DNA of 64,000 nt from Aromatoleum toluclasticum ATCC 700605 (GTDB taxonomy: Bacteria > Pseudomonadota > Gammaproteobacteria > Burkholderiales > Rhodocyclaceae), in contig NZ_KB899502.1 in the NCBI RefSeq assembly GCF_000378245.1, positions 62,001 through 126,000 on the forward strand, read 5' to 3'. Shown piece by piece: positions 2,821-61,919 of the stretch (its first letter is position 1; each line of letters opens with the position of its first letter). Under the pieces are notes generated by a model, which was given only the letters and a program-made list of their open reading frames with translations, did not search any database and was not told the DNA's origin. The translations under genes were made by a program, and so were the position numbers.

Positions 2821-2838
2821 TAGTCCGGCCGGACGATG
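2821..2838 (+). promoter_or_regulatory. GTCC-N4-GGAC palindrome, site 1
   Basis: TAGTCCGGCCGGACGATG, the most symmetric copy of the recurrent motif, lies between the divergent Cache/RND operon (start 2754) and the 3alpha-HSD gene. Its centre is about 83 nt before the 2913 start codon and about 75 nt before the 2754 start, so it could serve both directions. Confidence 0.65.
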
Positions 2839-2912
2839 TCCGACAGTGGACCGAAACCCGATACTCGGCCAAAGGGCGATTTTGGGCGTCGCCTCCATTC
2901 GAGGAGATTTGC

Positions 2913-3680
2913 ATGACTGTAACCGTCGTTACCGGCTCGGCATCAGGGATCGGAGCCGCTGTCGCCAGGCAACTGCAGCAGGCGGGGCACCGCGTGATCG
3001 GCATTGATCGGCGCGATGCGGACATCGTGGCCGATCTCTCCACCGCCGAGGGGCGGCAGGCGGCGGTTGCTGCTGCAATCGAGGCCTGCGACGGTGTGCT
3101 CGATGGTCTGGTGTGCTGTGCCGGCCTGGGGCCGACCGCGAGCTCCTGCGGGCTGATCGTCTCGGTCAATTATTTCGGCATGAGCGAGCTGGTCGATGGC
3201 CTGGCCGATGCCCTCGCGCATGGTAGTAAGCCGGCTGTGCTGCTGATCGGCTCGGTGGCTTCGGCGCACCCCGGCATCGAGAAGCTCCCGATGGTCGAGC
3301 TGATGCTCGCGCGCGACGAGGCGGCGGCGAAGGCGCAGGCCGACGCGATGGGCAATCCGCAGGCCGCGTATGCCGGTTCGAAGTATGCGATCACCGTGTT
3401 TGCGCGCCGCAAGGCGGTCGAGTGGGGCCGCCGCGGCATTCGGTTGAATGTGGTTGCGCCCGGCGCCGTCGAGACGCCGCTGCTGCAGGCTTCGCTGTCG
3501 GATCCGCGCTATGGCGAGGCCATCCGCAATTTCGTCTCGCCGCTGGGCCGCAACGGCAGCCCCGACGAGATCGCCAGAGTCGTTGGCTTCATGCAGTCGG
3601 AGCAGGCCAGTTTCGTGCACGGCACGGTGGTCTTCGTCGACGGTGGTATGGATGCGCTTACCCGTCCGGAGCGCTTCTGA
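2913..3680 (+). CDS. hsdA: 3alpha-hydroxysteroid dehydrogenase/carbonyl reductase (SDR)
   Basis: 255 residues. Classical short-chain dehydrogenase: TGSASGIG cofactor loop near residue 6, and Tyr153-x3-Lys157 (YAGSK). Unusually close to the C. testosteroni 3alpha-HSD/CR over its length, as remembered: GIDRRDADIVADLSTAEGR, DGLVCCAGLGP, VSVNYFG, SVASAHPG, NVVAPGAVETPLLQASLSDP and FVDGGMDA all have direct counterparts. That enzyme interconverts 3alpha-hydroxy and 3-keto groups on steroids with NAD(P), a first step of ring-A activation, and also reduces xenobiotic carbonyls. RBS GAGGAG is at about -10. The upstream palindrome links it to the other steroid genes. A TetR gene follows 47 nt downstream. 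Confidence 0.9.
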   Translation: MTVTVVTGSASGIGAAVARQLQQAGHRVIGIDRRDADIVADLSTAEGRQAAVAAAIEACDGVLDGLVCCAGLGPTASSCGLIVSVNYFGMSELVDGLADALAHGSKPAVLLIGSVASAHPGIEKLPMVELMLARDEAAAKAQADAMGNPQAAYAGSKYAITVFARRKAVEWGRRGIRLNVVAPGAVETPLLQASLSDPRYGEAIRNFVSPLGRNGSPDEIARVVGFMQSEQASFVHGTVVFVDGGMDALTRPERF

Positions 3681-3727
3681 ACGCCGCCCCGGGCGATGGC
3701 GACGCAGCGGCGCAAGCGGCGGAAAGC

Positions 3728-4366
3728 GTGAAGTCCGAAGTGCATACCGCTCTGCCCCAGCGGGAGGGGGGCGATGCGCCGGGAAGCGGGCCGGAGGCCC
3801 GCCGCCGGCAGATCCTTGATGCGGCGGAGGAATGTTTCCGCGACAAGGGGTTCCACGGCGCGAGCATCGCGGACATCTCCGCGGTGGCGGGCGTCAGCGC
3901 CGGTCACATCTACTACTACTTCAAGAATAAAGAAGAGATCATCACCGCGATCGCGGAGGCGGAACTCGACGCCCTGCTCGGAATACACGACGCGGTGCGC
4001 GTCGAACACAACGTCGTGGACGCGATCGTCGCGCGATCGGGCGACATCGCGCTCCAGTACGCCGATCCGGAGAACTCGCGGTTGCGTCTGGAAATTCTCG
4101 CGGAGAGCGCACGCAATCCCTGCATTTCCGCGCGCGTGCATGCGCTCGACCGACGTGCGCGCGAAAGCGCTTACCAGAGTCTACGTCTGGTCAACACCGG
4201 GTTGGCGGGCGCGGCCCTGGAGGCGCGGATGGCCGCGCAGTATGAACTGATCAGCGCGATCCTTTTCGGAATCACCGCCCGCGCCGTGCGGGGCATCGAG
4301 GTAGATCACGCACTCCTGAAGCGGGGAGTGATGGACGCGGTCCGTCACGTGCTCGAGCACAACTGA
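3728..4366 (+). CDS. TetR/AcrR-family transcriptional regulator
   Basis: About 212 residues from GTG 3728; this start is a best guess, as no ATG lies near in frame. The N-terminal DNA-binding domain is clear: [19 protein letters not shown], then [20 protein letters not shown] with FKNKEEII, the standard TetR helix-turn-helix. The C-terminal ligand domain is typical in length and not diagnostic. It lies directly behind hsdA and is likely cotranscribed with it. It may repress hsdA or sense a steroid, but no operator can be tied to it. Its last codons overlap the end of a convergent folE2 remnant. Confidence 0.85.
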
Positions 4367-4545
4367 CCTCGGGCCGTGCGCTCGATCATCTCGCCGAAGC
4401 GCGACATGTGCGTGCCCTTGAAGTGCTGCGGCAGATCCACCTGCATGTCGAAGACCGCTACGGAGCCCTGCGAGTGGCCGCTGCGGTCGCGCACCCGCCA
4501 CGCGTCGTGTGCGGACTGGACGTCGGGGATGTCGTTGAGTTTCAT
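4345..4545 (-). pseudogene. Remnant of folE2 (GTP cyclohydrolase type IB)
   Basis: A 66-codon frame from ATG 4545 (a further upstream ATG is at 4575) reads [31 protein letters not shown] and [18 protein letters not shown]. This is the N-terminal part of the FolE2 family (DVQ..., [25 protein letters not shown]). About 15 residues between DVQSA and VRDRSG appear deleted, and the frame stops after roughly a quarter of the family length of about 260 residues, losing the zinc and catalytic parts. It ends inside the 3' end of the TetR gene on the other strand. Most likely a decaying fragment left by a rearrangement; a short functional peptide is unlikely. Confidence 0.65.
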
Positions 4546-4599
4546 CGCGTCGTTCGGGTGAGGGCTCGATCGCATCGTCCGCTGCCGCGCCGATCACAT

Positions 4600-4617
4600 C
4601 ATCGTCCATTCAGACGG
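4600..4617 (-). promoter_or_regulatory. GTCC-N4-GGAC palindrome, site 2 (degenerate)
   Basis: Reads CCGTCTGAATGGACGATG on the minus strand: full right half, weaker left half. It lies 34-64 nt upstream of the possible folE2-remnant starts and about 205 nt upstream of the acyl-CoA synthetase, next to site 3. Confidence 0.4.
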
Positions 4618-4662: not shown

Positions 4663-4680
4663 TAGTCTCAACGGACGATG
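4663..4680 (+). promoter_or_regulatory. GTCC-N4-GGAC palindrome, site 3
   Basis: TAGTCTCAACGGACGATG. All 18 bases are identical to site 6 before the extradiol dioxygenase operon 23 kb away. Centre is about 143 nt upstream of the acyl-CoA synthetase start at 4815. Confidence 0.65.
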
Positions 4681-4814: not shown

Positions 4815-6683
4815 ATGGATAACGGCATCGCGGCCCGCAACGCATCGCAGCCTTCGGTGGACATCGTCTCGCGGGATGAGACGCAGGCAAAGCTTGATCG
4901 GCGCGCCCAGAGCAGTGCGCTGATAAAGCCACGCGATCTGTATACGATCGCCGACCGCGTCGAGGCGCAGGCCGCGGTTCAGGGGCGACGGACCTTCCTC
5001 ATTTACGGCGATACCCGCTACAGCTATGCCGAGGTCGATGCACGCGCCAACCAGTTTGCGCACGCTATGCGTGCACGCGGTTTGGGACCGGGAGACGTCT
5101 GCGCGATGGCGATCGAGAATCGCCCCGAGTTCTTCTTCGCGTGGTTCGGCCTGGCGAAGCTCGGCGCCGTTGCCGCCTTCATCAACACGCAGGTAAGCGG
5201 GCGCCCGCTCTTCCATGCCATCGAGACGACCGGCGCGAAGGCGGTGCTGATCGGTGAGGAGTGTCTGCCGAATTTCGCCGCTACGGAGAGCCTCCCGGCA
5301 GCGATGCAGTGGCTGCTGCCCGATGCGGAAAAGCCGGCACCCGCGAGCATGCGTCGGGCTGGCGACACTGATTTCGAGGAGGAGGTCGAGCGCGCGTCGC
5401 GCGACTCCTTTCCGCGCGAACCGCGTGCGCCGATCACTGCGGAGACGCCGGCCCTGTTGATTTTCACGTCCGGCACCACCGGGCTGCCGAAGGCCGCGCG
5501 CTACAGCCACATGCGCTGGATGTCGTCGGGTGACGTCATGGTCGACACCGTCGACGCCGGCCCGAATGACGTCTTCTACTGCTTCCTGCCGCTCTACCAC
5601 GGTGCCGCGGCAACCTCGGTGACGTCCACCGCGTTGAAGGCGGGTGCGAGCATCGTCGTGCGCCGGAAGTTCAGCACCCGCGAGTTCTGGAGCGACGTGC
5701 GCCGCTATGGCGTTACCGTGTGCCAGTACATCGGCGAGATCTGCCGCTATCTGCTCAACCTGCCTTCCACAGAGCGCGACTGCGAGCACAGCCTGCGCTG
5801 CATGATGGGGGCGGGCCTGACGCCCGAATCCTGGCAGCGCTGGGTCGAGCGCTTCGGGCCGATCCAGATCTTCGAGGGCTGGGGATCGACGGAGGCGAAC
5901 GCCAACCTCATCAACGTCGACAACCGCATCGGCTCCTGCGGTCGGGTGCCGTACTGGGAGAAAACGAACTTCCGTCTCGTGCGCTACGACCTCGAAAGCA
6001 GCGAACACGTGCGCGATGCGCGCGGCTTCTACCTGTTGTGCCAGCCCGGCGAGGTCGGGGAGGGCATCGGCTACATCGTCGACCATCCCGAAATCGGGGG
6101 CGGGCGCTTCGAAGGCTATACCTCGGCGGATGCCACGGAAAGGAAGGTACTGCGCAACGTCTTCGTCGAGGGCGACGCGTACTGGAGTTCGGGCGATCTG
6201 CTGCGCTACGACGACGACGGCTATTTCTACTTCGTCGACCGCATCGGCGACACCTTCCGCTGGAAAAGCGAAAACGTGTCGACCATGGAAGTGGCCGACG
6301 CGCTGTCGGACTATCCCGGGGCCGAGCTCATCAACATCTACGGCGTGAAGGTGCCTGAACACGAGGGTCGCGCGGGGATGGCGGCGGTCGTGATGCAGGA
6401 AGGGCATCGCTTCGACCCCGACGCCTTCTATGCGCTGACCGAGGCGCGCCTGCCCCGTTATGCGGCCCCGCTCTTCGTACGTGTGTCGCGGGCGGCCGAC
6501 CTTACGACGACCTTCAAGCTGCGCAAGGTTGACCTGCAGCGGCAGGGCTACGACCCCACGGCATTCGACGATCCGCTCTACATCCGCAGCGACGCCGAAT
6601 GCACGTATCTGCCGTATTCCCCCGACGCTTTGGCGGAAGCCGGACTGCCCGAATTCCGGGACGCAAGCGCCCCGGCGACATAG
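4815..6683 (+). CDS. FATP/VLACS-type acyl-CoA synthetase
   Basis: 622 residues from ATG 4815, with a GGAG about 9 nt upstream. Class I adenylate-forming enzyme activating a carboxylic acid to its CoA thioester via an acyl-AMP. The P-loop-like motif IFTSGTTGLPKAAR starts near residue 217; QYIGEICRYLLN and FEGWGSTEANANL are the motifs that separate the fatty-acid-transport-protein/very-long-chain branch from ordinary FadD. The C-terminal lid has YWSSGDLLRYDDDGYFYFVD and DTFRWKSENVST. Members of this branch act on bulky acids, including bile acids and sterol side chains, so a steroid side-chain acid is a reasonable substrate here; this is inference. The stop codon TAG forms the first three bases of a regulatory palindrome (site 4). 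Confidence 0.85.
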   Translation: MDNGIAARNASQPSVDIVSRDETQAKLDRRAQSSALIKPRDLYTIADRVEAQAAVQGRRTFLIYGDTRYSYAEVDARANQFAHAMRARGLGPGDVCAMAIENRPEFFFAWFGLAKLGAVAAFINTQVSGRPLFHAIETTGAKAVLIGEECLPNFAATESLPAAMQWLLPDAEKPAPASMRRAGDTDFEEEVERASRDSFPREPRAPITAETPALLIFTSGTTGLPKAARYSHMRWMSSGDVMVDTVDAGPNDVFYCFLPLYHGAAATSVTSTALKAGASIVVRRKFSTREFWSDVRRYGVTVCQYIGEICRYLLNLPSTERDCEHSLRCMMGAGLTPESWQRWVERFGPIQIFEGWGSTEANANLINVDNRIGSCGRVPYWEKTNFRLVRYDLESSEHVRDARGFYLLCQPGEVGEGIGYIVDHPEIGGGRFEGYTSADATERKVLRNVFVEGDAYWSSGDLLRYDDDGYFYFVDRIGDTFRWKSENVSTMEVADALSDYPGAELINIYGVKVPEHEGRAGMAAVVMQEGHRFDPDAFYALTEARLPRYAAPLFVRVSRAADLTTTFKLRKVDLQRQGYDPTAFDDPLYIRSDAECTYLPYSPDALAEAGLPEFRDASAPAT

Positions 6684-6698
6684 TCCGTTTGGACGATG
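6681..6698 (+). promoter_or_regulatory. GTCC-N4-GGAC palindrome, site 4
   Basis: TAGTCCGTTTGGACGATG, the consensus form. It overlaps the TAG stop codon of the acyl-CoA synthetase and lies about 135 nt upstream of the small ORF at 6824. Confidence 0.65.
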
Positions 6699-6823: not shown

Positions 6824-7003
6824 ATGACTATCAAGCTGCTCGTGCTCGGCGCCTTGTGCGCCTTCCTCGGTTCCCAGTGGTTCAAGGGGAGCGTCTCCGA
6901 AGGCAGCGTTGCGTCCTGCGCAGCGTCCGTTCACAACTGCCACGGAACCGTCCTGGGACGGGCTTCGCCAGACCAGTTTTTCGCCGCACTGACGATGCGC
7001 TAG
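6824..7003 (+). CDS. Small exported/membrane-anchored peptide, unknown
   Basis: 59 codons from ATG 6824, preceded by GGAGAGAG at ideal spacing. The N-terminus (TIKLLVLGALCAFLGSQWF) is a hydrophobic helix or signal sequence, followed by a short polar tail with three cysteines. I do not recognise a family. Support for reality: a good ribosome site, a consensus regulatory palindrome (site 4) upstream and a strong hairpin right after the stop codon, so it could be its own transcription unit within the steroid regulon. Confidence 0.5.
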   Translation: MTIKLLVLGALCAFLGSQWFKGSVSEGSVASCAASVHNCHGTVLGRASPDQFFAALTMR

Positions 7004-7058: not shown

Positions 7059-8627
7059 TCAGTTCGTCCGGATACCCAGCGTACCGCCCTTCTGCCGCGG
7101 CGGGCATTCCTTGAGCGAGCGCATGTGCGCGCCGATCAGGTCATAGACCTGCCCGCCCCACGCTACGCCCATGCGCATCGACAGCTCGTCGGCCTTGTGG
7201 CCGTCGTGACGCTCGAAGGGGTCCATGCGCAGGTTGAAGGTCAGCGCGCTCGGCTGCAGGTGGTCGAAGAAGCCCTCGCGGGTTTTCAGGTGCGATTTCC
7301 ACGGGCCGATCCGCACGGCCGTCAGCTCGCTTTCGTTGTAGTAGATCACCGAGTTCCGCGCGGAGGGCCCCTTGCCCTGCCAGTGCGCGAGGTTGTCGAC
7401 GCCGTCTATGCAGACATGGTCGCTGTTGCGCAGGCGTTCGGCGACGTTCCGCTGTCCGGCCGCCGCCGCGAGGGTCGTGAACAGATCCTCGTGCGTCTGG
7501 ATGCCGTTCGATACGGATCCGGCGGGGATCGCCGCCGGCCAGCGCACGAGCATCGGCACGCGTACGCCGCCCTCCCAGGTTGTCGCCTTTTGGCCACGGA
7601 AGGGCGTCGTGCCGCCGTCCGGCCACCATGAGGTCATCGCACCGTTGTCGGACGTGTAGATCACGATGGTGTTGTCGGCGATCTTCAGCTTGTCGAGCAG
7701 TGCGAGCAGCTGGCCGACGTGGCCGTCGTGCTCCATCAGGCCGCTACCGAAGATGTCGAACTCGGAGGAGATGTCCTTGGCGAGCCCCTTCGAGGCTTCC
7801 TTGAGATGGGTGTAGATATGCATCCGCGCCGGGTTGAACCACGCGAAGAAGGGCTGGCCCGCGTCGACGGAGTTGCGGATGAAGCGCTCGGTGCGCTCGA
7901 TGAACTCCTCGTCCACCGTCTCCATGCGCTTCATCGTGAGGGGGCCGGTATCCTTGCAGCGCTGTTTGCCCCAGGGGCCGAAGCGCGCGTCCTTGTCGCC
8001 CTCGTCGCGGTCGGCGGCCACGCAGTCGAGGACGCCGCGCGGGCGGTAGCGCTGGTTGAAGCCCGGGTCCTTGGACCACATCGCCAGCTCCGGCTCCGAT
8101 TCGGTGTTCAGGTGGTACAGGTTGCCGAAGAATTCGTCGAAGCCATGCACCGTCGGCAGGTGCTCGTTGCGGTCGCCGAGGTGGTTCTTGCCGAACTGGC
8201 CGGTCCGGTAGCCTGCGGCCTTCAGGACCTCGGCCAGCGTCGGGTCGCGCGCGTCGAGTCCCACCGGCGAGCCGGGCAGGCCGACGGTGGTGAGGCCGGT
8301 GCGGATCGGCAACTGGCCGGTGATGAAGGCGGCGCGGCCGGCCGTGGAACTCGGGTGCGCGTAGTGGTCGGTGAACAGGATCCCCTCGCGGCCGATGCGG
8401 TCGATGTTGGGCGTGGGTACCATCATGCCGTGCGTATACAGGCCGATGTTGGCGTAGCCGACGTCGTCGCTCATGATCACGAGGATGTTGGGCGGCTTGT
8501 TCGGGGCCTGTGCCTCGGCCTGGGCGGGCAGGGCGCCCGCGAGCGCCGCCGCGATCAATGTCGCGAGCAGGTGGCGGTGTGGCGTGCGCGTTCGCCCTGC
8601 TGCTCGTGTGGGACGCAAGTTCATCAT
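7059..8627 (-). CDS. Exported serine-type sulfatase
   Basis: 522 residues. Signal peptide near residues 19-41 (LLATLIAAALAGALPAQAEA). Sulfatase fold: NILVIMSDDVGYANIG with the metal-binding Asp54-Asp55, then Ser94-Thr-Ala-Gly-Arg98 in the place of the C/S-x-P/A-x-R signature, then AAFITGQLPIRTG; GKNHLGD and YTSDNGAMTSWW supply further active-site positions. The residue converted to formylglycine is therefore Ser, not Cys, which needs a radical-SAM maturase; that gene lies directly upstream, overlapping by 4 nt (ATGA). It hydrolyses sulfate esters in the periplasm. The substrate is not readable; a steroid sulfate is an attractive guess given the locus. RBS GAGGAG precedes the start. Confidence 0.9.
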   Translation of the reverse strand: MMNLRPTRAAGRTRTPHRHLLATLIAAALAGALPAQAEAQAPNKPPNILVIMSDDVGYANIGLYTHGMMVPTPNIDRIGREGILFTDHYAHPSSTAGRAAFITGQLPIRTGLTTVGLPGSPVGLDARDPTLAEVLKAAGYRTGQFGKNHLGDRNEHLPTVHGFDEFFGNLYHLNTESEPELAMWSKDPGFNQRYRPRGVLDCVAADRDEGDKDARFGPWGKQRCKDTGPLTMKRMETVDEEFIERTERFIRNSVDAGQPFFAWFNPARMHIYTHLKEASKGLAKDISSEFDIFGSGLMEHDGHVGQLLALLDKLKIADNTIVIYTSDNGAMTSWWPDGGTTPFRGQKATTWEGGVRVPMLVRWPAAIPAGSVSNGIQTHEDLFTTLAAAAGQRNVAERLRNSDHVCIDGVDNLAHWQGKGPSARNSVIYYNESELTAVRIGPWKSHLKTREGFFDHLQPSALTFNLRMDPFERHDGHKADELSMRMGVAWGGQVYDLIGAHMRSLKECPPRQKGGTLGIRTN

Positions 8628-9913
8628 CGGGTGTCTCCTCTAGGGGTGGTGCTCGGCGCATGTACGCCGAGCCGGCGCCGGATCTCCGGCATGTCCCGGG
8701 CGACCTGCGCGTAGAAGGCCTGCAGCCCCTCGCACAGGTAGTTGAGGCCGTGCTCGCCGTCCGGCGTGCGCAGCAGGCGGTTCTTGGGGCACTCGCCCCA
8801 GCACAGATTCAGCTGCGGGCAGCGCCGGCACCAGCCCGGCAGGCTGTCGTGCTTGGCGAGGCCGAATTCGGTCTGCTTGCGCGAGAAGGCGAGGTCGCCC
8901 TGATGGAATTCGCGGATGTTGCCGAGGCGGAATTCCGGATAGACGAAGTGATCGCAGGCGTAGAGCTCGCCGTCGTGCTCGAGGGCCATGGCCTTGCCGC
9001 ACACGGGCGCGCTGGTGCACATCTGCGCCGGCAGCCCGAGCGACTGCGCGACCGCGGTCTCGAAGACGTTGATGTGCACGCGGCCGAAGTCGTTCGCCAG
9101 CCACTCGCGCCACAGCGTGCACAGGAAATCGCCGTAGTCGCGCGCATCGACCGACCATTCAGTGACGATCGACAGCGGGTGGTCGGGACGGCTGCGCGGC
9201 GCGCCCAGCGGCACGCGGTCGGCGGTGCTGCTCAAGGCCGGGGCGCGGGCCTTGAACTCCCGCGTCTCGACGCAGGGCGTGAACTGGATGCGGTAGGTGC
9301 CGGGAATGGCGCGCAGGCCGCGATAGACTTCGAGCGGGGCGCGCGCGACGTCGCGATTGACGGCGCACAGCAGCGCGAAGGGCACACCGGCGGCCGCGAG
9401 GCGCTGGGCGGCGGCGACGACGCGATCGAAAGTCGGCTCGCCGCCCTTGGTCGGCCGGTAGCGGTCGTGCAGCGCGCGCGTGCCGTCCAGGCTCAGGCCG
9501 ACGACGAAGCCGTGCGCCTTCAGGAAGGCGACCCATTTGTCGTCGAGCAGCAGGCCGTTGGTTTGCAGGTCGTTCTCGATGCGTTGGCCGGGCTTGCGGT
9601 AACGCGCCTGCAATTCGACCACGCGGCGGAAGAAGTCCAGCCCCATCACGGTCGGTTCGCCGCCCTGCCACGAAAAGACCACCTCGTCCCCGGTCTGCGC
9701 CTCGATGTACTGCCGGATGTGGGTTTCGAGCAGCGCGTCGTCCATGCGCGCATTGCGCGGGTGTTCGAGCAGCTCGCTCTTGTGCAGGTAGAAGCAGTAG
9801 GGGCAGTCCAGATTGCACAGGGCGCCGGCCGGCTTCGCCATCACATGGAAGCGGTAATGCCGCCCGGGGGGCAGCGGCGGGAGCTGGCAGCGCGGGACGG
9901 CCTCGGCGTTCAT
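8624..9913 (-). CDS. Anaerobic sulfatase-maturating enzyme (radical SAM/SPASM)
   Basis: 429 residues. Radical-SAM cluster Cys33-x3-Cys37-x2-Cys40 (CNLDCPYC), preceded by FHVMAKPAGAL, the anSME hallmark; VFSWQGGEPTVMGLDFF follows. The C-terminal SPASM region carries the auxiliary [4Fe-4S] cysteines (CVETREF, MCTSAPVCGKAMAL, CDHFVYP, CRRCPQLNLCWGECPKNR). It oxidises the active-site Ser or Cys of sulfatases to formylglycine without oxygen. Coupling to a Ser-type sulfatase matches what is known of the family. Overlaps the sulfatase start by 4 nt and the upstream gene stop by 4 nt, so the three genes form one tight operon. Oxygen-independent maturation suits a facultative anaerobe. Confidence 0.93.
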   Translation of the reverse strand: MNAEAVPRCQLPPLPPGRHYRFHVMAKPAGALCNLDCPYCFYLHKSELLEHPRNARMDDALLETHIRQYIEAQTGDEVVFSWQGGEPTVMGLDFFRRVVELQARYRKPGQRIENDLQTNGLLLDDKWVAFLKAHGFVVGLSLDGTRALHDRYRPTKGGEPTFDRVVAAAQRLAAAGVPFALLCAVNRDVARAPLEVYRGLRAIPGTYRIQFTPCVETREFKARAPALSSTADRVPLGAPRSRPDHPLSIVTEWSVDARDYGDFLCTLWREWLANDFGRVHINVFETAVAQSLGLPAQMCTSAPVCGKAMALEHDGELYACDHFVYPEFRLGNIREFHQGDLAFSRKQTEFGLAKHDSLPGWCRRCPQLNLCWGECPKNRLLRTPDGEHGLNYLCEGLQAFYAQVARDMPEIRRRLGVHAPSTTPRGDTR

Positions 9914-20721: not shown

Positions 20722-20726
20722 CGAAG

Positions 20727-49669: not shown

Positions 49670-49947
49670 GATTGCTGCGCCCATGGCCACCACCATGGCG
49701 CCGACGCCGCGAGCGGATTCCATGGCGTGTGTGCGCTTTTTTCCGCGGCGGAGGATTGCCTGGGTGCCAGGTCCGCGAGCTGGAGATTTGCAGCGATCAT
49801 GTCGCAGTGCCGGCAGTGCAGGCTGCCAGAGGTCGTGACGGTCCACGCGCTCTCGCCGCATACACCGCAGGACCAGATTTCCCTATCCGCTTCCGCGCTA
49901 TGGGAATGACGCCTGCGGTACTCGTCGATCCGAATCACCTTGTCCAT
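49666..49947 (-). CDS. Small zinc-ribbon protein
   Basis: 93 residues from ATG 49947, preceded by GGAGGCGACG. N-terminus DKVIRIDEYRRRHSH, then WSCGVCGESAWTV and SGSLHCRHCDMIAANLQ: two CxxC pairs 16 residues apart form a zinc ribbon like that of small regulatory or RNA-associated proteins. The tail (NPLAASAPWWWPWAQQS) is tryptophan-rich. Palindrome site 9 is centred 80 nt upstream, tying it to the steroid regulon. Function unknown. Confidence 0.6.
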   Translation of the reverse strand: MDKVIRIDEYRRRHSHSAEADREIWSCGVCGESAWTVTTSGSLHCRHCDMIAANLQLADLAPRQSSAAEKSAHTPWNPLAASAPWWWPWAQQS

Positions 49948-50018: not shown

Positions 50019-50036
50019 CATCGTCCCTTTCGAATA
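50019..50036 (-). promoter_or_regulatory. GTCC-N4-GGAC palindrome, site 9
   Basis: Minus strand reads TATTCGAAAGGGACGATG: conserved right half. Centre is 80 nt upstream of the zinc-ribbon gene start. Overlaps site 10 by two bases. Confidence 0.5.
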
Positions 50037-50051
50037 GTCCGAGCGGACGAG
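50035..50051 (+). promoter_or_regulatory. GTCC-N4-GGAC palindrome, site 10
   Basis: TAGTCCGAGCGGACGAG, a perfect GTCC/GGAC core directly joined to site 9, giving tandem sites. No rightward gene follows, so it probably supports the leftward zinc-ribbon promoter. Confidence 0.5.
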
Positions 50052-50132
50052 CGGGATGGTCGCGCGGGGTGACGAAAACGACTTGCCGGCATCGCCCGGG
50101 AAGGCGATGCCGGCTTTCGCTGCCGCATTTGC

Positions 50133-51195: not shown

Positions 51196-51213
51196 CATCG
51201 TCCAAACGGGTTA
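51196..51213 (-). promoter_or_regulatory. GTCC-N4-GGAC palindrome, site 11
   Basis: Minus strand reads TAACCCGTTTGGACGATG, with 15 of 18 bases as in site 4. Centre about 88 nt upstream of the YCF48 start. Confidence 0.6.
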
Positions 51214-51268: not shown

Positions 51269-51286
51269 TAGTCCGTTCAGACGATG
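51269..51286 (+). promoter_or_regulatory. GTCC-N4-GGAC palindrome, site 12
   Basis: TAGTCCGTTCAGACGATG, two mismatches from site 4, pointing to hsaA (centre about 108 nt before 51385). Sites 11 and 12 lie back to back in the divergent region. Confidence 0.65.
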
Positions 51287-54507: not shown

Positions 54508-54525
54508 TAGTCCTGTTGGGGGATG
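54508..54525 (+). promoter_or_regulatory. GTCC-N4-GGAC palindrome, site 13
   Basis: TAGTCCTGTTGGGGGATG, with a full left half and a weaker right half. Centre about 106 nt upstream of etfB (GTG 54623). Confidence 0.55.
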
Positions 54526-54622: not shown

Positions 54623-55372
54623 GTGAAGATTCTGGTCCCCGTGAAGCGGGTGGTCGATTACAACGTCAAGGTGCGGGTCAAGTCGGACCGCAGCGGGGTG
54701 GAACTCTCCGGCGTCAAGATGGCGATCAACCCCTTCGATGAGATCTCCGTCGAAGAGGCGGTCCGCCTCAAGGAGGCCGGCATTGCGACCGAGGTGATCG
54801 CGGTGAGCTGCGGCGGCGCCGCGAGCCAGGAAACGCTGCGCACGGCACTTGCGATGGGCGCGGACCGGGCGATCCTGGTGGAGAGCGATGCCGAACTGCA
54901 ACCGCTCGCCGTCGGCAAGCTGCTGAAGGCCGTGGCGGAACGCGAACAGCCGCAGCTGGTGATCTGCGGCAAGCAGGCCATCGACGACGACGCCAACCAG
55001 ACGGGACAGATCCTGGCGGCGCTGATGGGCTGGGCCCAGGCGACCTTCGCTTCGAAGGTCGTCGTCGAGGGCGAGACCCTGCGCGTGACGCGCGAAGTCG
55101 ACGGCGGCCTCGAGACGATCGAGGTGAAGCTGCCGGCGGTGGTGACGTCGGACCTGCGGCTCAACGAACCGCGCTACGCGACGCTCCCCAACATCATGAA
55201 GGCGAAGAAGAAGCCGCTGGATGTCATTCCGGCGGCCGATCTGGGCGTCGATGTCGCCCCGCGCCTGCGGCACACGCAGTATTCCGAGCCGCCCACGCGG
55301 AAGGCTGGGATCAAGGTCGCCGACGTCGCCGACCTGATCGCAAAGCTCAAGAACGATGCCAAAGTGATTTGA
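54623..55372 (+). CDS. etfB: Electron-transfer flavoprotein beta subunit
   Basis: 249 residues from GTG 54623, with GGGAGAAG 6 nt upstream; this gives the standard ETF-beta N-terminus [54 protein letters not shown] (AMP/flavin contact) and the recognition loop [20 protein letters not shown] are canonical. Accepts electrons from the acyl-CoA dehydrogenases at 33.7-35.9 kb and others. Cotranscribed with etfA 13 nt downstream. Confidence 0.95.
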
Positions 55373-55385
55373 GGAGTTCCGGGAA

Positions 55386-56333
55386 ATGAAGGTTCTGGTC
55401 ATTGCCGAACATGACAATACGAAAATTGCCGGCGCGACACTCAATGTCGTCGGCGCCGCACAGCAATTCGGAGCGGAGGTGCAGGTGCTGGTCGCAGGCT
55501 TCGACAGCGCTGCGGCCGCGACCGAAGCTGCGGCGCTGGCCGGCGTCGCCCAGGTCGTCAGCGTGGATGCGCCGCATTACCGCGACCAGCCGGTCGAGAA
55601 CGTGGCGGTGCTCGTGGCGCGACTCGTGCGCACCGAGGGCTTCACGGCGGTACTTGCCGGCGGCACGAGCTTCGGCAAGAATCTCGCGCCGCGCATCGCC
55701 GCTTTGCTCGACGTGGCGCCGGTTTCCGATGTCGTGTCGATCGCGGGCGTTGGACGGTACGTGCGTCCGATCTATGCTGGTAACGTGATGGTGTCGGTGG
55801 AGTCGGACGAGCCGGTGCAGGTGCTCACCGTGCGCACGACGGCATTTGCCGCCGTTGAAGCCGGCGGGGCCGCGCCGGTGCGGGATGCGGCGGCAGGCGA
55901 GGATCTGGCGGTGTCGCGTCTCCTCGGACGCGAGATCAGCAAGTCCGAGCGGCCGGAGCTGGCCGCGGCGCGCATCGTCGTGTCGGGCGGGCGCGGTCTG
56001 GGCAGCGGCGACAAGTACCGCGAAGTGCTGGAGCCCCTGGCAGACCGCCTCGGCGCCGCGCTCGGGGCATCGCGTGCCGCGGTGGATGCAGGTTATGTCC
56101 CGAATGACTACCAGGTCGGGCAGACTGGCAAGATCGTGGCGCCCGATCTGTATGTCGCCGTGGGTATTTCCGGTGCGATCCAGCATCTTGCCGGGATGAA
56201 GGACTCGAAGGTCATCGTCGCGATCAACAAGGATCCGGACGCGCCGATCTTCCAGGTGGCCGACTTCGGATTGGTCGGCGACCTGTTCGAGACGATTCCG
56301 CAACTGGTTGAAGGACTGGGCGTGAATCAGTAG
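55386..56333 (+). CDS. etfA: Electron-transfer flavoprotein alpha subunit
   Basis: 315 residues. Typical ETF-alpha: [20 protein letters not shown] at the start, then the FAD domain with [54 protein letters not shown] and [20 protein letters not shown]. The partner of EtfB, binding FAD; delivers electrons to ETF-QO (58743-60392). RBS GAGGAG. A LuxR-type regulator gene follows. Confidence 0.95.
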
Positions 56334-56432
56334 TTGATGCGATCGCGGCCGGGCACGCAGGTGTCCCGGCAGTTGCGGCAACGATGTGAGATGGCCGGGA
56401 CGTGGAGGGAACCCCGACGGAGGGAACCCCCG

Positions 56433-57632
56433 ATGGACGAAAATCCCGGTGAAGGAGAGATCGTGGAAGCAACCAGGGGGCCCTCGGCCCTGATGCAATC
56501 GAATTTCGATCTGGCCGAATATGACCGGATCGTCAGTGTCTTGTACGACGCGGCGCTCGACACGAAGTCGTGGGCGCCGGCGCTGGAGTATCTGCAGCAC
56601 GTCTTCGCGGCGAACTACGTGACGCTCATCCTGCGAACGCCGGAACAGGCGGACACGGGGTTGATGATCGCGGTCGGCGACGTGGAGGGGGGCGGCCGTG
56701 TCACGTACATGAGCTATCCCCAGACCACTACCCCGTTCGTCAATCAGCCCGCCGACAAGGTTTTCACGGTCGAAGACCTGATGACCGAGAGCGAGTGGAA
56801 GCGTTCTTCCTACTATCAGCACTGGTGCGCGAGCCACGGCGTCTTCCACGTCATGGGCGTCGACATTGCCACCCCGGGTGCGGGTAAGCTGCGGTTCAGA
56901 ATTACCCGGCCCGAGAACTCACCGAAGTTCTCCGCCGAGGATCGCGCCCGCTGCGAGGCCCTGTTGCCGCACCTGCGGCGCGCCCTGCAGATCCACAACC
57001 AGCTCGACCGCAGCGAGTCGCTGGGCGCGATGTACGCGCAGGCGATCAGCCGTCTTTCGGTCGCGACCATCGTGCTCGACGAGAGCGGCAAGGTGCTCGA
57101 CCAGAACCTGATTGCGAAGGAGATCCTCGCGACCGGCGACGGGCTCAAGGTCGTCGGAGGGCGGCTCGAAGCGTCATATCCGAGCGACAATCGTGAGCTG
57201 CAGCGTTTGGTACGCAACGCCTTCGCGCGTTATGGCACGGGCAATGTCGCGGTCGCCGAGGCGATGTCGGTAGCACGGCCTTCGGGACTGGTGAGCCTGG
57301 GTGTCGTGGTGGAGGTTGTGCCGTCGAGCGAGTGGGCCGAAGGCAAGGGTCAGCCGGCGGCCGTCGTCTATATCCGTGACGCGGCCGGCAAGTCGCTGGC
57401 GAGCAGTACTGTCGCGAAGCAGCTGTTCAACCTCACGCCGGCGGAAACCGCACTCGCGCTCGAACTCACCAACGGCCTGTCGCTCGAGGAGGCCGCGGAG
57501 GCCCTCGGCATCCGTCGCAACACCGCACGCGCCCACCTGCGCTCGATCTTTTCGAAGACGGGCGTGCGGCGGCAGACGGAGCTCGTGCGCATCATGCTCA
57601 ACAGCGTCGCGGCGCTCAGCAAGAACGGCTGA
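56433..57632 (+). CDS. LuxR-family regulator with N-terminal sensor region
   Basis: 399 residues from ATG 56433 (GGAGGG at 8 nt); GTG 56463 (AAGGAGAG at 4 nt) is an alternative start. Residues about 1-200 contain an unassigned sensory domain (LYDAALDTKSWAPALEYLQH); about 200-320 a PAS/GAF-like region (ATIVLDESGKVLDQNLIAKE); the C-terminal 65 residues are a LuxR/GerE helix-turn-helix (LTPAETALALELTNGLSLEE, LGIRRNTARAHLRSIFSKTG). This build is widespread in proteobacterial catabolic clusters; TeiR of C. testosteroni is a LuxR-type steroid-responsive activator. Encoded among steroid genes, it is the best candidate to bind the GTCC-N4-GGAC palindromes. No membrane segment seen. Confidence 0.85.
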   Translation: MDENPGEGEIVEATRGPSALMQSNFDLAEYDRIVSVLYDAALDTKSWAPALEYLQHVFAANYVTLILRTPEQADTGLMIAVGDVEGGGRVTYMSYPQTTTPFVNQPADKVFTVEDLMTESEWKRSSYYQHWCASHGVFHVMGVDIATPGAGKLRFRITRPENSPKFSAEDRARCEALLPHLRRALQIHNQLDRSESLGAMYAQAISRLSVATIVLDESGKVLDQNLIAKEILATGDGLKVVGGRLEASYPSDNRELQRLVRNAFARYGTGNVAVAEAMSVARPSGLVSLGVVVEVVPSSEWAEGKGQPAAVVYIRDAAGKSLASSTVAKQLFNLTPAETALALELTNGLSLEEAAEALGIRRNTARAHLRSIFSKTGVRRQTELVRIMLNSVAALSKNG

Positions 57633-57795: not shown

Positions 57796-57813
57796 TGATC
57801 TATATGGACGATG
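57796..57813 (+). promoter_or_regulatory. GTCC-N4-GGAC palindrome, site 14 (degenerate)
   Basis: TGATCTATATGGACGATG: complete right half, weak left half. Centre about 67 nt upstream of the SDR start at 57871. Confidence 0.5.
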
Positions 57814-57870: not shown

Positions 57871-58725
57871 ATGCACAAGGTCGCATTCGTGACGGGGGCG
57901 AGCCGCGGAATCGGACGCGAAACGGCGATCGCCTTCGCCCGCGCCGGTTTCGATGTCGCAATCAGTGCACGCACCATGGAAGAGGGCGAAACGCACGAGC
58001 ACGCCCTGCAAACGGCGGACGGCAGCCCCTTGCCGGGAAGCCTTGCAGAGACTGCTGCCGCCATCCGCCATCTGGGTAGGAGGGCGCTTGCGATCCGCAT
58101 GGATCTGCTGAACGACGCGTCGGTGCAGGCCGCCGGCGAAGCCGTGGTGCGCGAATTCGGCCGTATCGACGTGCTTGTGAACAATGCCGTGTATCAGGGC
58201 AGCGACCTCAACCTTCCGTTCCTCGAACTGGAGCCGGCGACGCTGCAGCGCGTGTTCCAGGGATACGTGATGGCGCCCTTCCTGCTGACGCGTGCCGTGT
58301 TGCCGGCGATGCTGGCGCAGGGCGAGGGCATCGTGATCAACATCACCTCGGGCGCCGGCGAAAGCGATCCTCCCGTTGCTGCGGGACGGGGCGGCTGGGG
58401 CTACGCATACGGCGCGGGCAAGGCCGCGGTATCGCGCCTGTCGGGGATCGTGTCAGTCGAATTGGGCGAACGGGGAATCCGTGCCTTCACGGTCAATCCG
58501 GGCGTCGTGACGACCGACGCGCTGAAAGTCACGATCGGCGAGAAAGGCGTCATCGCGCTGCGCAACGGATCGGCGCCGCCGGAAGTCCCCGCCGCCGTGC
58601 TGCTATGGCTCGCGACCGCGCCCGAGGCGGCGCGATTCCAGAAACGCACGATCAACGCGCAGCCCTTCGCGCTCGAACACGGCATCGTGCCCGACTGGCG
58701 CCCCGCCGGCACGACCGCGTCCTGA
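57871..58725 (+). CDS. Short-chain dehydrogenase, unknown substrate
   Basis: 284 residues, RBS AGAGGA. SDR with VAFVTGASRGIGRETAIAFA, NNAVYQGSDLNLPFLE (NNAG becomes NNAV), the Ser in INITSGAGESDPP and Tyr-x3-Lys in YAYGAGKAAV. Two insertions compared with FabG: EEGETHEHALQTADGSPLP after strand 2 and a glycine-rich loop before the catalytic Tyr. Such extended SDRs occur in steroid and terpene catabolic clusters. Likely oxidises a hydroxyl of a steroid or hydroxyacyl-CoA. Followed after 17 nt by ETF-QO. Confidence 0.8.
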   Translation: MHKVAFVTGASRGIGRETAIAFARAGFDVAISARTMEEGETHEHALQTADGSPLPGSLAETAAAIRHLGRRALAIRMDLLNDASVQAAGEAVVREFGRIDVLVNNAVYQGSDLNLPFLELEPATLQRVFQGYVMAPFLLTRAVLPAMLAQGEGIVINITSGAGESDPPVAAGRGGWGYAYGAGKAAVSRLSGIVSVELGERGIRAFTVNPGVVTTDALKVTIGEKGVIALRNGSAPPEVPAAVLLWLATAPEAARFQKRTINAQPFALEHGIVPDWRPAGTTAS

Positions 58726-58742
58726 GCGGAGTCACGCAAATC

Positions 58743-60392
58743 ATGAGTCACGAACGCGAATCGATGGAATTCGACGTCCTGATCGTCGGCGGCGGCCCTG
58801 CGGGCCTCGCTGCGGCGATCAGGCTGAAGCAGTTGGCCAACGAGAAGGGCACCGAACTGGCGGTGTGCCTGATCGAGAAGGCGGCCGAGATCGGCGCGCA
58901 CATCCTCTCCGGTGCAGTGATGGATCCGCGCGCGCTGAACGAACTGATTCCCGATTGGAAGGAACAGGGCGCGCCGGTGACCACCGAAGTCACCGAAGAC
59001 CGCGTGATCTTCCTCAACGAGACGGGTGGCCGCAAGGTGCCCACCGGCCTGCTGCCGGACTGTTTCCTGAACCACGGCAACTACATCGTGCGCCTGGGCA
59101 ACGTCGCCAAGTGGCTCGGCGAACAGGCCGAAGCGCTGGGCGTCGAGGTCTATCCGGGTTTCGCCGGCGCCGAGATCCTGTATGACGAGACGGGCGCCGT
59201 GAAGGGCGTGGCCACCGGCGACATGGGCGTCACGCGCGAAGGCGAGCAAGGCCCCGCCTACCAGCCGGGCATGGAGCTGCACGCCAAATACACGCTCTTC
59301 GCCGAAGGCTGTCGCGGCCACCTCGGCAAGCAGCTCGAAGAGAAGTTCAACCTCAGCAACGGCGTCGATCCTCAGACCTACGGCATCGGCCTGAAGGAAC
59401 TGTGGGAAGTGCCCGCCGAACGTCATGAGCCGGGCGTGGTCGTGCACACCACCGGCTGGCCCCTGCCCGCCGACACTTACGGCGGCGGTTTCGTCTATCA
59501 CCTCGAGGACAATCTGGTTGCGATCGGCTACGTGGTCGGCCTCAACTACACCAACCCGCATCTGTCGCCGTTCGAGGAATTCCAGCGCTACAAGACGCAT
59601 CCGGAAATCCGCAAGTATCTCGAAGGCGGCAAGCGCCTGGCGTACGGTGCACGCGCGATCGCCGCGGGCGGCCTGCAGAGCCAGCCGAAGCTGGTGTTTC
59701 CGGGCGGCGCGCTGATCGGCGACGACGCGGGCTTCCTCAACGCCGCGCGCATCAAGGGCAGCCACGCCGCGATCAAGAGTGGCGCGCTCGCCGCCGAGGC
59801 CGCCTTCGAGGCGGTTACTGCCGAGCGCCAGCGTGACGAACTCACGGCCTTCCCCGAAGCGTTCAAGAGTAGCTGGTTGTTTGACGAGCTGCACAAGACG
59901 CGCAACTTCAAGCCCTACATGAAGAAGGGCCTGTGGATGGGCTCGCTGCTCTTCGGCTTCGACCAGAAGGTGCTCAAAGGCAAGGCGCCGTGGACGCTGC
60001 ACAACAGCGCGGACCACGACAAGCTCAAGCTCGCGTCCGAGTGCCCGAAGATCGACTACCCGAAGCCCGATGGCGTACTGACCTTCGACCGCCTCTCCTC
60101 GGTGTTCCTGTCGAACACCAATCACGAGGAAGACCAGCCCTGCCACCTGCAGCTGAAGGATGCCTCGGTGCCGATCGCGGTGAACCTCGCGAAGTACGAC
60201 GCCCCCGAGCAGCGCTACTGCCCGGCCGGCGTGTACGAGATCGTGAGGGACGACTCCGGATCGAACCCCCGCCTGCAGATCAACGCGCAGAACTGCGTGC
60301 ACTGCAAGACCTGCGACATCAAGGACCCGACGCAGAACATCAACTGGGTCGTGCCGCAGGGCGGCGAAGGGCCCATCTACCAGGGCATGTAA
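58743..60392 (+). CDS. Electron-transfer flavoprotein:ubiquinone oxidoreductase
   Basis: 549 residues from ATG 58743. FAD motif DVLIVGGGPAGLAAAIRL at residues about 11-28, EKAAEIGAHILSGAVMDP, quinone/membrane region YGGGFVYHLEDNLVAIGYVV, GAIAAGG-type segment GARAIAAGGLQSQPKLVFPG, and C-terminal [4Fe-4S] ferredoxin-like cysteines in RYCPAGVYEIV and NCVHCKTCDIKDPTQNINW. Passes electrons from reduced ETF to ubiquinone at the inner membrane, closing the electron path for the acyl-CoA dehydrogenases in this cluster. Full length for the family. Confidence 0.95.
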   Translation: MSHERESMEFDVLIVGGGPAGLAAAIRLKQLANEKGTELAVCLIEKAAEIGAHILSGAVMDPRALNELIPDWKEQGAPVTTEVTEDRVIFLNETGGRKVPTGLLPDCFLNHGNYIVRLGNVAKWLGEQAEALGVEVYPGFAGAEILYDETGAVKGVATGDMGVTREGEQGPAYQPGMELHAKYTLFAEGCRGHLGKQLEEKFNLSNGVDPQTYGIGLKELWEVPAERHEPGVVVHTTGWPLPADTYGGGFVYHLEDNLVAIGYVVGLNYTNPHLSPFEEFQRYKTHPEIRKYLEGGKRLAYGARAIAAGGLQSQPKLVFPGGALIGDDAGFLNAARIKGSHAAIKSGALAAEAAFEAVTAERQRDELTAFPEAFKSSWLFDELHKTRNFKPYMKKGLWMGSLLFGFDQKVLKGKAPWTLHNSADHDKLKLASECPKIDYPKPDGVLTFDRLSSVFLSNTNHEEDQPCHLQLKDASVPIAVNLAKYDAPEQRYCPAGVYEIVRDDSGSNPRLQINAQNCVHCKTCDIKDPTQNINWVVPQGGEGPIYQGM

Positions 60393-60492: not shown

Positions 60493-60526
60493 GGCGCCGG
60501 CCGGCTGGTTCAGCCCGACCGGCGCC
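60493..60526. terminator. Hairpin between convergent ETF-QO and BamA-like genes
   Basis: GGCGCCGG / CCGGCGCC 8-bp perfect stem with an 18-nt loop that can pair further. It lies between the two convergent genes (60393-60559). A T6 run just upstream (60479-60484) follows a weaker pairing of GGTGTCGCAC with GCGTGACACC and may be a second, rightward terminator. Confidence 0.45.
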
Positions 60527-60559
60527 CGCAGCAGGCAGGCGCCCGGCCCCGGCCCCGGC

Positions 60560-61699
60560 TCAGCGCGGAGCAGCCAGAACCTGCTCGGCGAAGTGCTCGT
60601 CGATCTGTGCGCCCTTCGCGAGGAGCTGGCGGTACTTCACGAAATCGACCGTGTCCTTGCCCGTGATCTTGCGCGACTCGAAGGCATTGAATCCCAGCCA
60701 GGCCTCGTTGTTCATGTTCGCGGCGAGCCAATGGCGCTGCGCGGCCTTCTGCTGATCCCAGAAGAACTTCTTCTTGCCGCGGATCGCGTCGATCGAGTTC
60801 ATCAGGCAGTTGGGGAAGAGGTTCGTGAAGCGCCAGATCAGTGCGTTCACTTCCTTGTCGAGTAGTTCGAAGTCCACTTCGCATTGCGCGATCAGGGCTT
60901 CGGCCTCCTCGGCAGCGGCCCCCTGGACCATTTCGCCGTACACGATCTGTCCCAGCTCGGACCAGGTATCGGTGCGCACCTTGGGATTGGGGATCCACTC
61001 GCCGTTCTTCTTCAGCACCGGCAGGACCTTCGAGATCATGCCCTTGTACTTCATCTTGTACGCGCTCCACAGCTCGCACGAGACGCAGTTGTAGATCGCG
61101 TCTTCCATCGACAGGAACCACGGCAGGAAGTCAGTCGAGCCGCCCACCGGCGCGCTCCCGTGCTTCGGACCCGCCTGGCCATACACGGCCATGTCCGACG
61201 AGATCGTGATGTCGGTGGCCATCCCGATTTCCTGGCCACCCGCCACGCGCATGCCATTCACGCGGCAGATCACCGGCTTCTTGCAGTTGAGGATGCCGTC
61301 GACCATGCCGATGAAGAGATCGATGTAATCGCCGTATTCGGTCGGGCGCCGCGAATAGTAGGACGCATATTCCGCCGTGTTTCCCCCGCTGCACCATGCC
61401 TTCTCGCCCACTGCCGTAAACACCGCCGCAACGACACTGCGGTCGGACGAGGCCTTCTGGAAGGCTTCGATGACCCCCTTCACCATCTCGGTCGTGTAGG
61501 AGTTGTATTGCGCCGGGTTGTTGAGGGTGATCCACGCGGAATAGAGGTCGTCTACAGGCTTTCCGGCAGGGTCGAGGACCGGACGCTTCTCGTAGATGAC
61601 CGATGGCGCGGACGCCCCGAGGTGTTCGTTCTCCATCAGGGCGTGATTCTTCAGTTCGTTGTCACGTTTCAGAAAGTCCAGGCTCACGTCGGTCTCCAT
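60560..61699 (-). CDS. bamA: 6-Oxocyclohex-1-ene-1-carbonyl-CoA hydrolase-like (BamA/Oah family)
   Basis: 379 residues from ATG 61699, the position matching the family N-terminus (DFLKRDNELKNHALMENEHL); an in-frame ATG 36 nt upstream is also possible. Crotonase-fold hydrolase of the BamA/Oah/BzdY family: VIYEKRPVLDPAGKPVDDLY, LNNPAQYNSYTTEMVKGVIE, FTAVGEKAWCSGGNTAEYAS, VICRVNGMRVAGGQEIGMAT and GQAGPKHGSAPVGGSTDFLP are all diagnostic. The known enzyme hydrates and hydrolytically opens the six-membered ring at the end of anaerobic benzoyl-CoA degradation. No benzoyl-CoA reductase genes are near, so it could be displaced, a marker gene, or adapted to a cyclic ketone CoA of steroid origin. Own divergent promoter region with a different palindrome. 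Confidence 0.85.
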   Translation of the reverse strand: METDVSLDFLKRDNELKNHALMENEHLGASAPSVIYEKRPVLDPAGKPVDDLYSAWITLNNPAQYNSYTTEMVKGVIEAFQKASSDRSVVAAVFTAVGEKAWCSGGNTAEYASYYSRRPTEYGDYIDLFIGMVDGILNCKKPVICRVNGMRVAGGQEIGMATDITISSDMAVYGQAGPKHGSAPVGGSTDFLPWFLSMEDAIYNCVSCELWSAYKMKYKGMISKVLPVLKKNGEWIPNPKVRTDTWSELGQIVYGEMVQGAAAEEAEALIAQCEVDFELLDKEVNALIWRFTNLFPNCLMNSIDAIRGKKKFFWDQQKAAQRHWLAANMNNEAWLGFNAFESRKITGKDTVDFVKYRQLLAKGAQIDEHFAEQVLAAPR

Positions 61700-61812
61700 G
61701 TATTGAGTGTGCCGGAAGGATTTCCGGCAACACATTGCAGTGATGTCTATCCAATAATCGGATTTCTATCTTTGATCGCGCCTCGACCGTACAGGCACGA
61801 CTCCGCGCACGA

Positions 61813-61830
61813 ATCACCGATTCCGGTGAT
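61813..61830. promoter_or_regulatory. Palindrome ATCACC-N6-GGTGAT
   Basis: ATCACCGATTCCGGTGAT, perfect 6-bp arms, about 120 nt upstream of the BamA-like start. Unlike the GTCC/GGAC motif, so probably bound by another regulator. Not seen elsewhere in the window. Confidence 0.45.
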
Positions 61831-61901
61831 GCGGGCACGCGGGGGATGGGATAGCCGGGGAGGGGAGGGGGCCGCAGCGCCACTGCCGGCGCGCCTTTCC
61901 A

Positions 61902-61919
61902 TAGTTCATTTTAGTGATG
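61902..61919 (+). promoter_or_regulatory. GTCC-N4-GGAC palindrome, site 15 (very degenerate)
   Basis: TAGTTCATTTTAGTGATG: TAGT, TTT and GATG of the consensus kept, 12 of 18 bases as in site 4. About 123 nt before the DUF1302 start. May be chance. Confidence 0.3.

Follow-up and report, generated by a model that had tools for sequence, protein, structure and literature searches.

Sites and genes of the analysed window

The window, i.e., the whole stretch of 64,000 nucleotides analysed here, corresponds to C12:62001-126000 (contig C12) of the 5.92 Mb genome of Aromatoleum toluclasticum ATCC 700605. An asymmetric 18-mer, TAGTCY-N4-GGACGATG, was the recurring signal ahead of many steroid-breakdown operons and is treated here as a putative operator. 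Its sites, the genes that they point at, and the two regulatory proteins considered as its readers, a LuxR-type and a TetR-family protein, are listed in Table 1. Several of the NCBIfam scores fell short of the curated cut-offs (HsaA 373 of 450, HsaC 258 of 450, KstD models 575 of 788), and HsaA, HsaC, and KstD are therefore used as family-level names.

Fifteen of the sites had been listed in a sequence-only reading of the window, and all of them were present, the one given at 47962 being better placed at 47961 on the minus strand. The division into twelve good and three weak copies was reproduced by leave-one-out scoring, with twelve sites at 13.3-28.2 bits and sites 54508, 50035, and 61902 at 11.3, 9.4, and 6.4 bits, respectively. 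One good site, 19362 on the minus strand, had been overlooked and was found with the full matrix. The identity over 18 bases of two copies 23 kb apart (4663 and 28115) was confirmed, and the same 18 bases occur once more beyond the window, at C12:27153.

Table 1. Putative operator sites and associated features, in window coordinates. Scores are leave-one-out matrix scores unless marked otherwise. SDR, short-chain dehydrogenase/reductase; ETF-QO, electron transfer flavoprotein-quinone oxidoreductase; ORF, open reading frame; aa, amino acids.
Feature	Coordinates	Strand	Context	Score (bits) and remarks
Operator	2821-2838	+	Before SDR gene 2994-3680 and TetR gene 3728-4366	17.9; intergenic
TetR-family protein	3728-4366	+		Disfavoured as common regulator
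Operator	4600-4617	-	Opposed partner of 4663; no convincing minus-strand gene behind	18.5
Operator	4663-4680	+	Before acyl-CoA synthetase gene 4815-6683	20.7
Operator	6681-6698	+	Ahead of possible 59-aa small gene 6824-7003	28.2; strongest
Putative small ORF	6824-7003	+	Purine-rich stretch upstream	59 aa, hydrophobic N-terminus, three cysteines; read in sequence
Operator	19362-19379	-	Opposed partner of 19416	19.5 (full matrix); intergenic
Operator	19416-19433	+	Ahead of Ltp/thiolase-like gene 19510-20721 and ChsH2/MaoC-like gene 20718-21689	18.7
Operator	28115-28132	+	Before HsaC/TesB-like extradiol dioxygenase gene 28202-29092 and following genes	20.7
Operator	47844-47861	+	Divergent gap, metallo-beta-lactamase-like/KshA	13.3
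Operator	47961-47978	-	Divergent gap, metallo-beta-lactamase-like/KshA	16.1
Operator	50019-50036	-	Before 49340-49861 (-), no Pfam match	15.3
Weak site	50035-50052	+	Overlaps 50019	9.4; probably not independent
Operator	51196-51213	-	Before BNR/YCF48-like gene 50133-51116 (-)	21.9
Operator	51269-51286	+	Before HsaA-like monooxygenase gene 51385-52608	21.2
Operator	54508-54525	+	Before etfB-etfA-luxR 54623-57632	11.3; weak
LuxR-type regulator, 399 aa	56433-57632	+	GAF-like and PAS-like sensor folds, C-terminal GerE helix-turn-helix	Proposed activator
Operator	57796-57813	+	Directly 3' of luxR, before SDR gene 57871-58725 and ETF-QO gene 58743-60392	20.6
Weak, diverged site	61902-61919	+	Before DUF1302 gene 62117-63706	6.4

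Enrichment and placement of the motif

With up to three mismatches, the pattern TAGTCYNWWYGGACGATG matched the window 18 times (three of these being second-strand readings of places already counted), whereas 100 dinucleotide shuffles averaged 0.76 matches, with 4 as the highest count. The palindrome GTCC-N4-GGAC, which had been put forward as the defining core, fared differently: the bare core with one mismatch had 47 matches in the window against 42.6 expected, and genome-wide it was found at 104 places against 331 for the reversed-pattern control. The bare core was not enriched, so it is the longer asymmetric form that carries the signal.

The window matrix, which was built from and includes the sites themselves, gave 21 matches above 15 bits. 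All were in intergenic DNA (8.8% of the window; genes cover 91%), as had been claimed, except that site 6681 overlaps the final bases of the preceding gene; the top-scoring fully genic match had 14.8 bits. The distance from the site centre to the start of the gene pointed at was 64-201 in this genome by our own gene calls, a wider range than the 65-110 nt given earlier, with site 50019 as an outlier at 305 (167 with the longer ORF start at 49861).

Distribution in the Aromatoleum genome

The genome was scanned with up to two mismatches, which yielded 22 matches, compared with six for the reversed pattern. Contig C12 had sixteen of them, C17 four, and C2 and C4 a single one apiece; all 11 matches with at most one mismatch were on C12 or C17. 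The same density before unrelated genes was not seen, 20 of the 22 matches being on these two contigs. The matches C2:13894 and C4:272600 are both inside genes and were taken as chance.

For DNA outside the window, the matrix was built from the window sites alone. Counting both strands, 11 positions in the held-out 101 kb of C12 exceeded 16 bits, whereas 200 column-permuted matrices averaged 0.27 such positions and never gave more than 3. Above 13 bits there were eleven separate matches, ten intergenic and one genic (155834, 13.3 bits). The ten intergenic matches lay ahead of or between a KstD-like gene, an enoyl-CoA hydratase gene with an SDR gene, a hydrolase gene with an amidase gene, an SDR gene, a DUF1329 gene, another SDR gene, an XdhC-like gene, and genes for an F420-type oxidoreductase and an acyl-CoA dehydrogenase. 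The KstD-like gene lies at C12:6683 and its product scored 724 bits to the solved 3-oxosteroid 1-dehydrogenase 7p18. On C17, one site stands ahead of a run coding for flavin reductase, SDR, 2-oxopent-4-enoate hydratase, acetaldehyde dehydrogenase, and 4-hydroxy-2-oxovalerate aldolase, which by sequence are hsaB/E/G/F-like genes; a second stands ahead of an aldehyde dehydrogenase gene followed by the gene of a LuxR paralogue (129834-130997; 40% identical to the window LuxR protein). Two more matches near 40 kb on C17 had no called gene nearby. Sites had been predicted ahead of kstD and hsaBDEFG, and were found at the KstD-like gene and the C17 run. The steroid regulon is thus supported, although several of its targets are no more than SDR, XdhC-like, amidase, or unknown genes.

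Promoter geometry and symmetry

The geometry was determined from 137 deduplicated sites, 30 from this genome and 107 from other genomes. A second conserved block, resembling a -10 element, was observed at motif positions 39-44 (A40 61%, A43 48%, T44 56%), and conservation was at most 0.15 bits at any of the positions 19-38, where a -35 element would lie. When scored with textbook -10 frequencies, the mean -10 score peaked at position 39 in the sites of this genome (n = 30, z 3.2) as well as in the others (n = 107, z 3.4), position 40 being second-best. Taking position 39 as -12 places the operator centre at -42.5. Lux boxes of LuxR regulators are centred at -42.5, and class II activation is recognised by a site at this position in a promoter lacking a -35 element; the arrangement therefore fits an activator. 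The -10 is weak and the -35 absent or weak. The motif also has the inverted repeat of such sites (about 20 bp), with GTCC-N4-GGAC as its core, although as an imperfect palindrome: the pairs 1/16 and 5/12 were complementary in 93% of the 137 sites, 4/13 in 80%, 3/14 in 64%, and 6/11 in 56%.

The recurring spacing to the -10-like block could alternatively mean that the motif is part of a promoter for an alternative sigma factor. The inverted-repeat core, the 20 bases that separate it widely from the -10 hexamer, the ordinary TAnaAT-like -10, and the close tracking of a LuxR gene described below make this very improbable, although no search for sigma factors was made.

Conservation in related loci

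Eighty of 98 loci encoding relatives of the window LuxR protein were kept, including loci of Aromatoleum, Thauera, Zoogloea, Pseudomonas, Stutzerimonas, Halomonas, and others. They contained 295 matrix matches above 17 bits, compared with 3.25 expected from permuted matrices. Gene calls were usable in 74 loci, and gene context was counted there, leaving out six loci with 16 of the 295 matches. At a gene cover of 88.7%, 268 of the 279 matches were fully intergenic, eight partially so, and three genic. Where the neighbouring genes were in tandem, the GGACGATG half was directed toward the downstream gene in 175 of 183 cases, and the median centre-to-start distance was 100 (n = 260). A plus-strand site lay at most 600 bp after luxR in 64 of the 80 loci, as in the window, and in seven loci a site preceded luxR by 1.7-2.1 kb, scoring 22.8-25.6 bits in four of them.

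Sixteen hsaA-promoter regions, picked because both sites had been found there, were aligned: the operator was nearly invariant, the flanks had diverged, and the distance between the opposing sites varied from 51 to 141. Since the bare core is common, an origin of the sites in chance, repeats, or conserved non-regulatory DNA was considered; the results with shuffled sequence, permuted matrices, reversed patterns, and held-out DNA argue against it, as does an operator kept while its flanks diverge, and its probability is negligible. Single sites could be followed as well. The unusual 18-mer of site 19416 also stands ahead of a 403-aa gene in genome G507, that of site 50019 recurs identically in loci L027-L029, and a near-identical copy of the 51196 18-mer was found in Thauera and Zoogloea loci. 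The diverged 18-mer of site 61902 has nearly the same form in L027-L029 (6.8-9.7 bits) and was not found in locus L031.

Far from Aromatoleum, the results were graded. Distant LuxR loci of 41 kb were scored above 14 bits against permuted matrices, with 3 matches vs 1.62 in Vibrio, 3 vs 0.56 in Burkholderia arboris, 5 vs 0.54 in Cupriavidus, 6 vs 0.84 in Caballeronia, and 3 vs 0.48 in Sphingobium; the LuxR locus of N. aromaticivorans (21 kb) had 0 vs 0.26. Whole records were compared using the pattern with at most two mismatches and its reversed form. The counts were 17 vs 1 in Thauera terpenica, 20 vs 2 in Stutzerimonas stutzeri K1, 25 vs 7 in Pseudomonas linyingensis, 16 vs 4 in Halomonas PR-M31, and 10 vs 2 in the B. 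arboris replicon. The excess was small in P. fluorescens PS833 (18 vs 11) and P. umsongensis (19 vs 10), yet 15 of the 18 matches lay within 74 kb and 16 of the 19 within 99 kb, respectively. The Caballeronia replicon had 10 vs 6, all ten within 45 kb, Cupriavidus 2 vs 1, and Sphingobium 4 vs 2, with one site ahead of an annotated 3-ketosteroid-9-alpha-monooxygenase gene; pNL2 had 0 vs 2. The operator and the regulon are real, and the operator recurs in unrelated steroid-degrading bacteria.

The 174 kb Vibrio alfacsensis plasmid NZ_CP140104.1 (L163) carries steroid-type catabolic genes and a 57%-identical LuxR gene behind etfBA. With ten motif matches and none in the reversed control, it represents a steroid regulon on a plasmid.

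Candidate readers of the motif

Sites with at most one mismatch were counted in 150 genomes of the family. Eight had at least three sites, all of them among the ten genomes with a LuxR relative at E<1e-50, and none of the other 140 reached three sites (Fisher p 8.6e-12). At E<1e-20, the figures were eight of 19 genomes with a relative and none of 131 without. Among 369 genomes of the class, the two with at least three sites were the same two that had a LuxR relative at E<1e-50. The genome of the window was counted in both samples. The recognition-helix region RNTARAHLRSIFSKTG of the window LuxR protein had 0-4 changes in 16 residues in relatives of 35-68% identity, and seven changes in the N. 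aromaticivorans LuxR protein (28% identity).

Two regulators of the window had been proposed as candidates; co-occurrence, gene neighbourhood, and promoter geometry support the LuxR protein and not the TetR-family protein. Were the motif the operator of the TetR-family protein, a repressor like KstR/KstR2, the site ahead of the SDR-TetR operon and the roughly palindromic form of the motif would be explained, and actinobacterial steroid regulons are indeed run by TetR repressors. However, TetR relatives occurred patchily, in 31 of the 150 family genomes including this one, with 34-45% identity in the 30 others, and no match at E<1e-15 was found in five of the eight motif-rich genomes (G395, G455, G482, G499, and G500). 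The TetR gene and the operator thus do not co-occur as in a KstR/KstR2-type regulon, and a -42.5 position without a -35 element suits an activator; the TetR protein is highly unlikely to be the common regulator.

It is somewhat more conceivable, though still unlikely, that the C17 paralogue is the true reader or that it and the window LuxR protein divide the sites. The C17 protein adjoins sites, and the five genomes named above have only 30-49% relatives, yet 3-9 sites. Against this, loci with closer relatives of the window LuxR protein carry sites directly around the gene. The recognition-helix regions of the two proteins differ by four residues only, which makes a sharing of sites the simpler explanation. 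A third LuxR-type gene, C12:29885-31129 (-) (L108:9885-11129), lies in the same gene region; its product is 23-27% identical to the window LuxR protein and has an unlike recognition helix.

We therefore regard the 18-mer, with a probability of about 0.85, as the putative operator of a TesR/TeiR-like activator of the LuxR family, represented by the window protein and its C17 paralogue. Binding by the window LuxR protein is suggested by the co-occurrence and the helix conservation, and its activating role and ligand are proposed. Several observations weigh against this assignment. Three of the window sites are weak, and so is the -10 block: at position 39 only 33-34% of the sites exceed 3 bits, and the top-scoring hexamer falls at position 39 or 40 in 68 of 137 sites. 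TAGTCY, the left arm, mirrors GGACGATG imperfectly, pairs 2/15, 8/9, and 0/17 being complementary in only 17-23% of the sites. Many of the 295 matches in related loci are orthologous Pseudomonas sites and not independent, and the E<1e-50 and three-site limits were chosen after the tables had been seen. Genome G390, with 12 diverged LuxR relatives, has one site and G497, with six, has none. In G395, the 19 kb around the LuxR gene contained no intergenic site (one genic match), and the genome has eight; such sites, spread over the genome away from the LuxR gene, favour action in trans and not linkage. G390, whose LuxR relatives are on contigs C12, C13, C15, and others, is a candidate for a changed operator specificity.

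In the proposed mechanism, the GAF/PAS-like N-terminal region would sense a steroid or an early catabolite, and a LuxR dimer would then bind the imperfect palindrome via the GerE domain. The site at -42.5 would replace the missing -35 element and recruit RNA polymerase, by which some 20 operons would be activated, most with steroid-type or beta-oxidation-type genes and probably including the regulator's own. The order etfB-etfA-luxR behind a site is found in the window and in Vibrio; together with the seven loci having a site upstream of luxR, it makes positive feedback through site 54508 likely at this locus. Analogy to TeiR would suggest a steroid, or a metabolite derived from one, as the ligand (PMC8399759, PMC8700777).

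The LuxR-type protein

The GerE domain (PF00196) was detected at residues 334-387 with 25.9 bits (cut-off 23.5), i.e., as a C-terminal helix-turn-helix. The protein was 98% identical to that of A. toluolicum and 97% to that of Azoarcus sp. Aa7, and no solved structure of a sequence relative was found at E<0.01. The AlphaFold model was moderate (predicted local distance difference test score 70.4, predicted template modelling score 0.47). The 50 Foldseek matches listed were mostly photoreceptors and phosphodiesterases containing GAF/PAS domains, plus VqmA, with query-normalised template modelling scores of 0.19-0.35. With such scores and a moderate model the sensor fold is only indicated, as GAF-like and PAS-like parts lying before the helix-turn-helix.

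Single sites and neighbouring genes

Site 6681 seemed misplaced, with convergent genes on its two sides, until the 59-aa ORF was read as its downstream gene; this ORF is a possible unannotated member of the steroid regulon. Sites 50019 and 50035 (window 50019-50052) are in opposite orientation with a two-base overlap, between 49340-49861 and 50133-51116, and the plus-strand site points at no plus-strand gene.

The module at 7059-11064 (a sulfatase, a radical-SAM/SPASM protein that is perhaps its maturase, and a gene without a Pfam match) has no operator sites, in line with the sequence-only reading. The same had been said of bamA, and there the weak site 61902 lies in the divergent gap between the bamA-like and the DUF1302 gene, pointing at the latter. 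The product of 60560-61699 (-), inside the steroid region, scored above the cut-off for 6-oxocyclohex-1-ene-1-carbonyl-CoA hydratase (BamA-type), an enzyme of the anaerobic benzoyl-CoA pathway.

Comparison with known systems

The lux box of quorum-sensing LuxR regulators, an inverted repeat of about 20 bp at -42.5 that is bound by GerE and mediates class II activation, is alike in length and centre; GerE binding is predicted here. It differs in sequence and in the acyl-homoserine-lactone domain of its regulators, in place of which a GAF/PAS-like sensor is present here, and the gene context here is catabolic. TesR/TeiR of Comamonas testosteroni is presumably of similar size to the window LuxR protein. 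By description it is a LuxR-type positive regulator of steroid gene clusters as well, and no operator is given for it in the parts of the papers at hand (PMC6678751, PMC6895838, PMC8700777). A literature search that covered few subscription papers, and not the first description of TeiR, found no published TesR/TeiR operator. Among the matches listed for papers with both half-sites as letters, none was titled on steroid regulation; in the available part of PMC5953540 these letters occur in primers only.

A LuxR-family protein with a palindromic site at a steroid gene has been described in C. testosteroni ATCC11996, where it acts on the 3,17beta-hydroxysteroid dehydrogenase gene (Ji et al. 2021, quoted in PMC8228715). 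That protein, however, is a repressor, and its site TTCCTCCGCGTTCGCGGAGGAACGAA has a longer inner palindrome and neither TAGTC nor a GGACGATG arm (PMC8228715). KstR and KstR2 of actinobacteria likewise use one operator for many dispersed steroid operons, but they are TetR repressors with the motifs TNNAACGTGTTNNA and AAGCAAGNNCTTGCTT (PMC8228715), and KstR homologues are described as absent from bile-acid-degrading Proteobacteria (PMC8399759). EdcR of Caenibius tardaugens also belongs to proteobacterial steroid (estradiol) regulation; it is a repressor, and its palindrome TnnCnnTACnAnTnGTAnnGnnA overlaps the -10 (PMC8700777) and is unlike the present motif.

Implications for steroid regulation in Proteobacteria

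Regulation in bile-acid-degrading Proteobacteria is largely unknown according to a review, which also notes that P. stutzeri Chol1 has a pair of TeiR-like genes; deleting one strongly delays growth on cholate, a result given there as unpublished (PMC8399759). According to a claim repeated in PMC6895838, only C. testosteroni has tesR-like genes; this claim needs revision if the family of the window protein is TesR-like.

An operator with its promoter geometry allows regulons to be predicted in proteobacterial genomes. It flags pathway genes, such as the kstD-like gene, the hsaB/E/G/F-like run, the DUF1302 and DUF1329 genes, and the 59-aa ORF, names a candidate activator, and supplies parts for steroid biosensors. 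On balance, we lean towards the view that a single operator serves a whole clade of LuxR paralogues sharing a conserved recognition helix and is the common steroid control element of Proteobacteria, its sequence and -42.5 geometry having been kept across Rhodocyclales, Burkholderiales, Pseudomonas, Halomonas, a Vibrio plasmid, and faintly Sphingobium. Steroid clusters would in this way move between hosts with a ready-made regulon.

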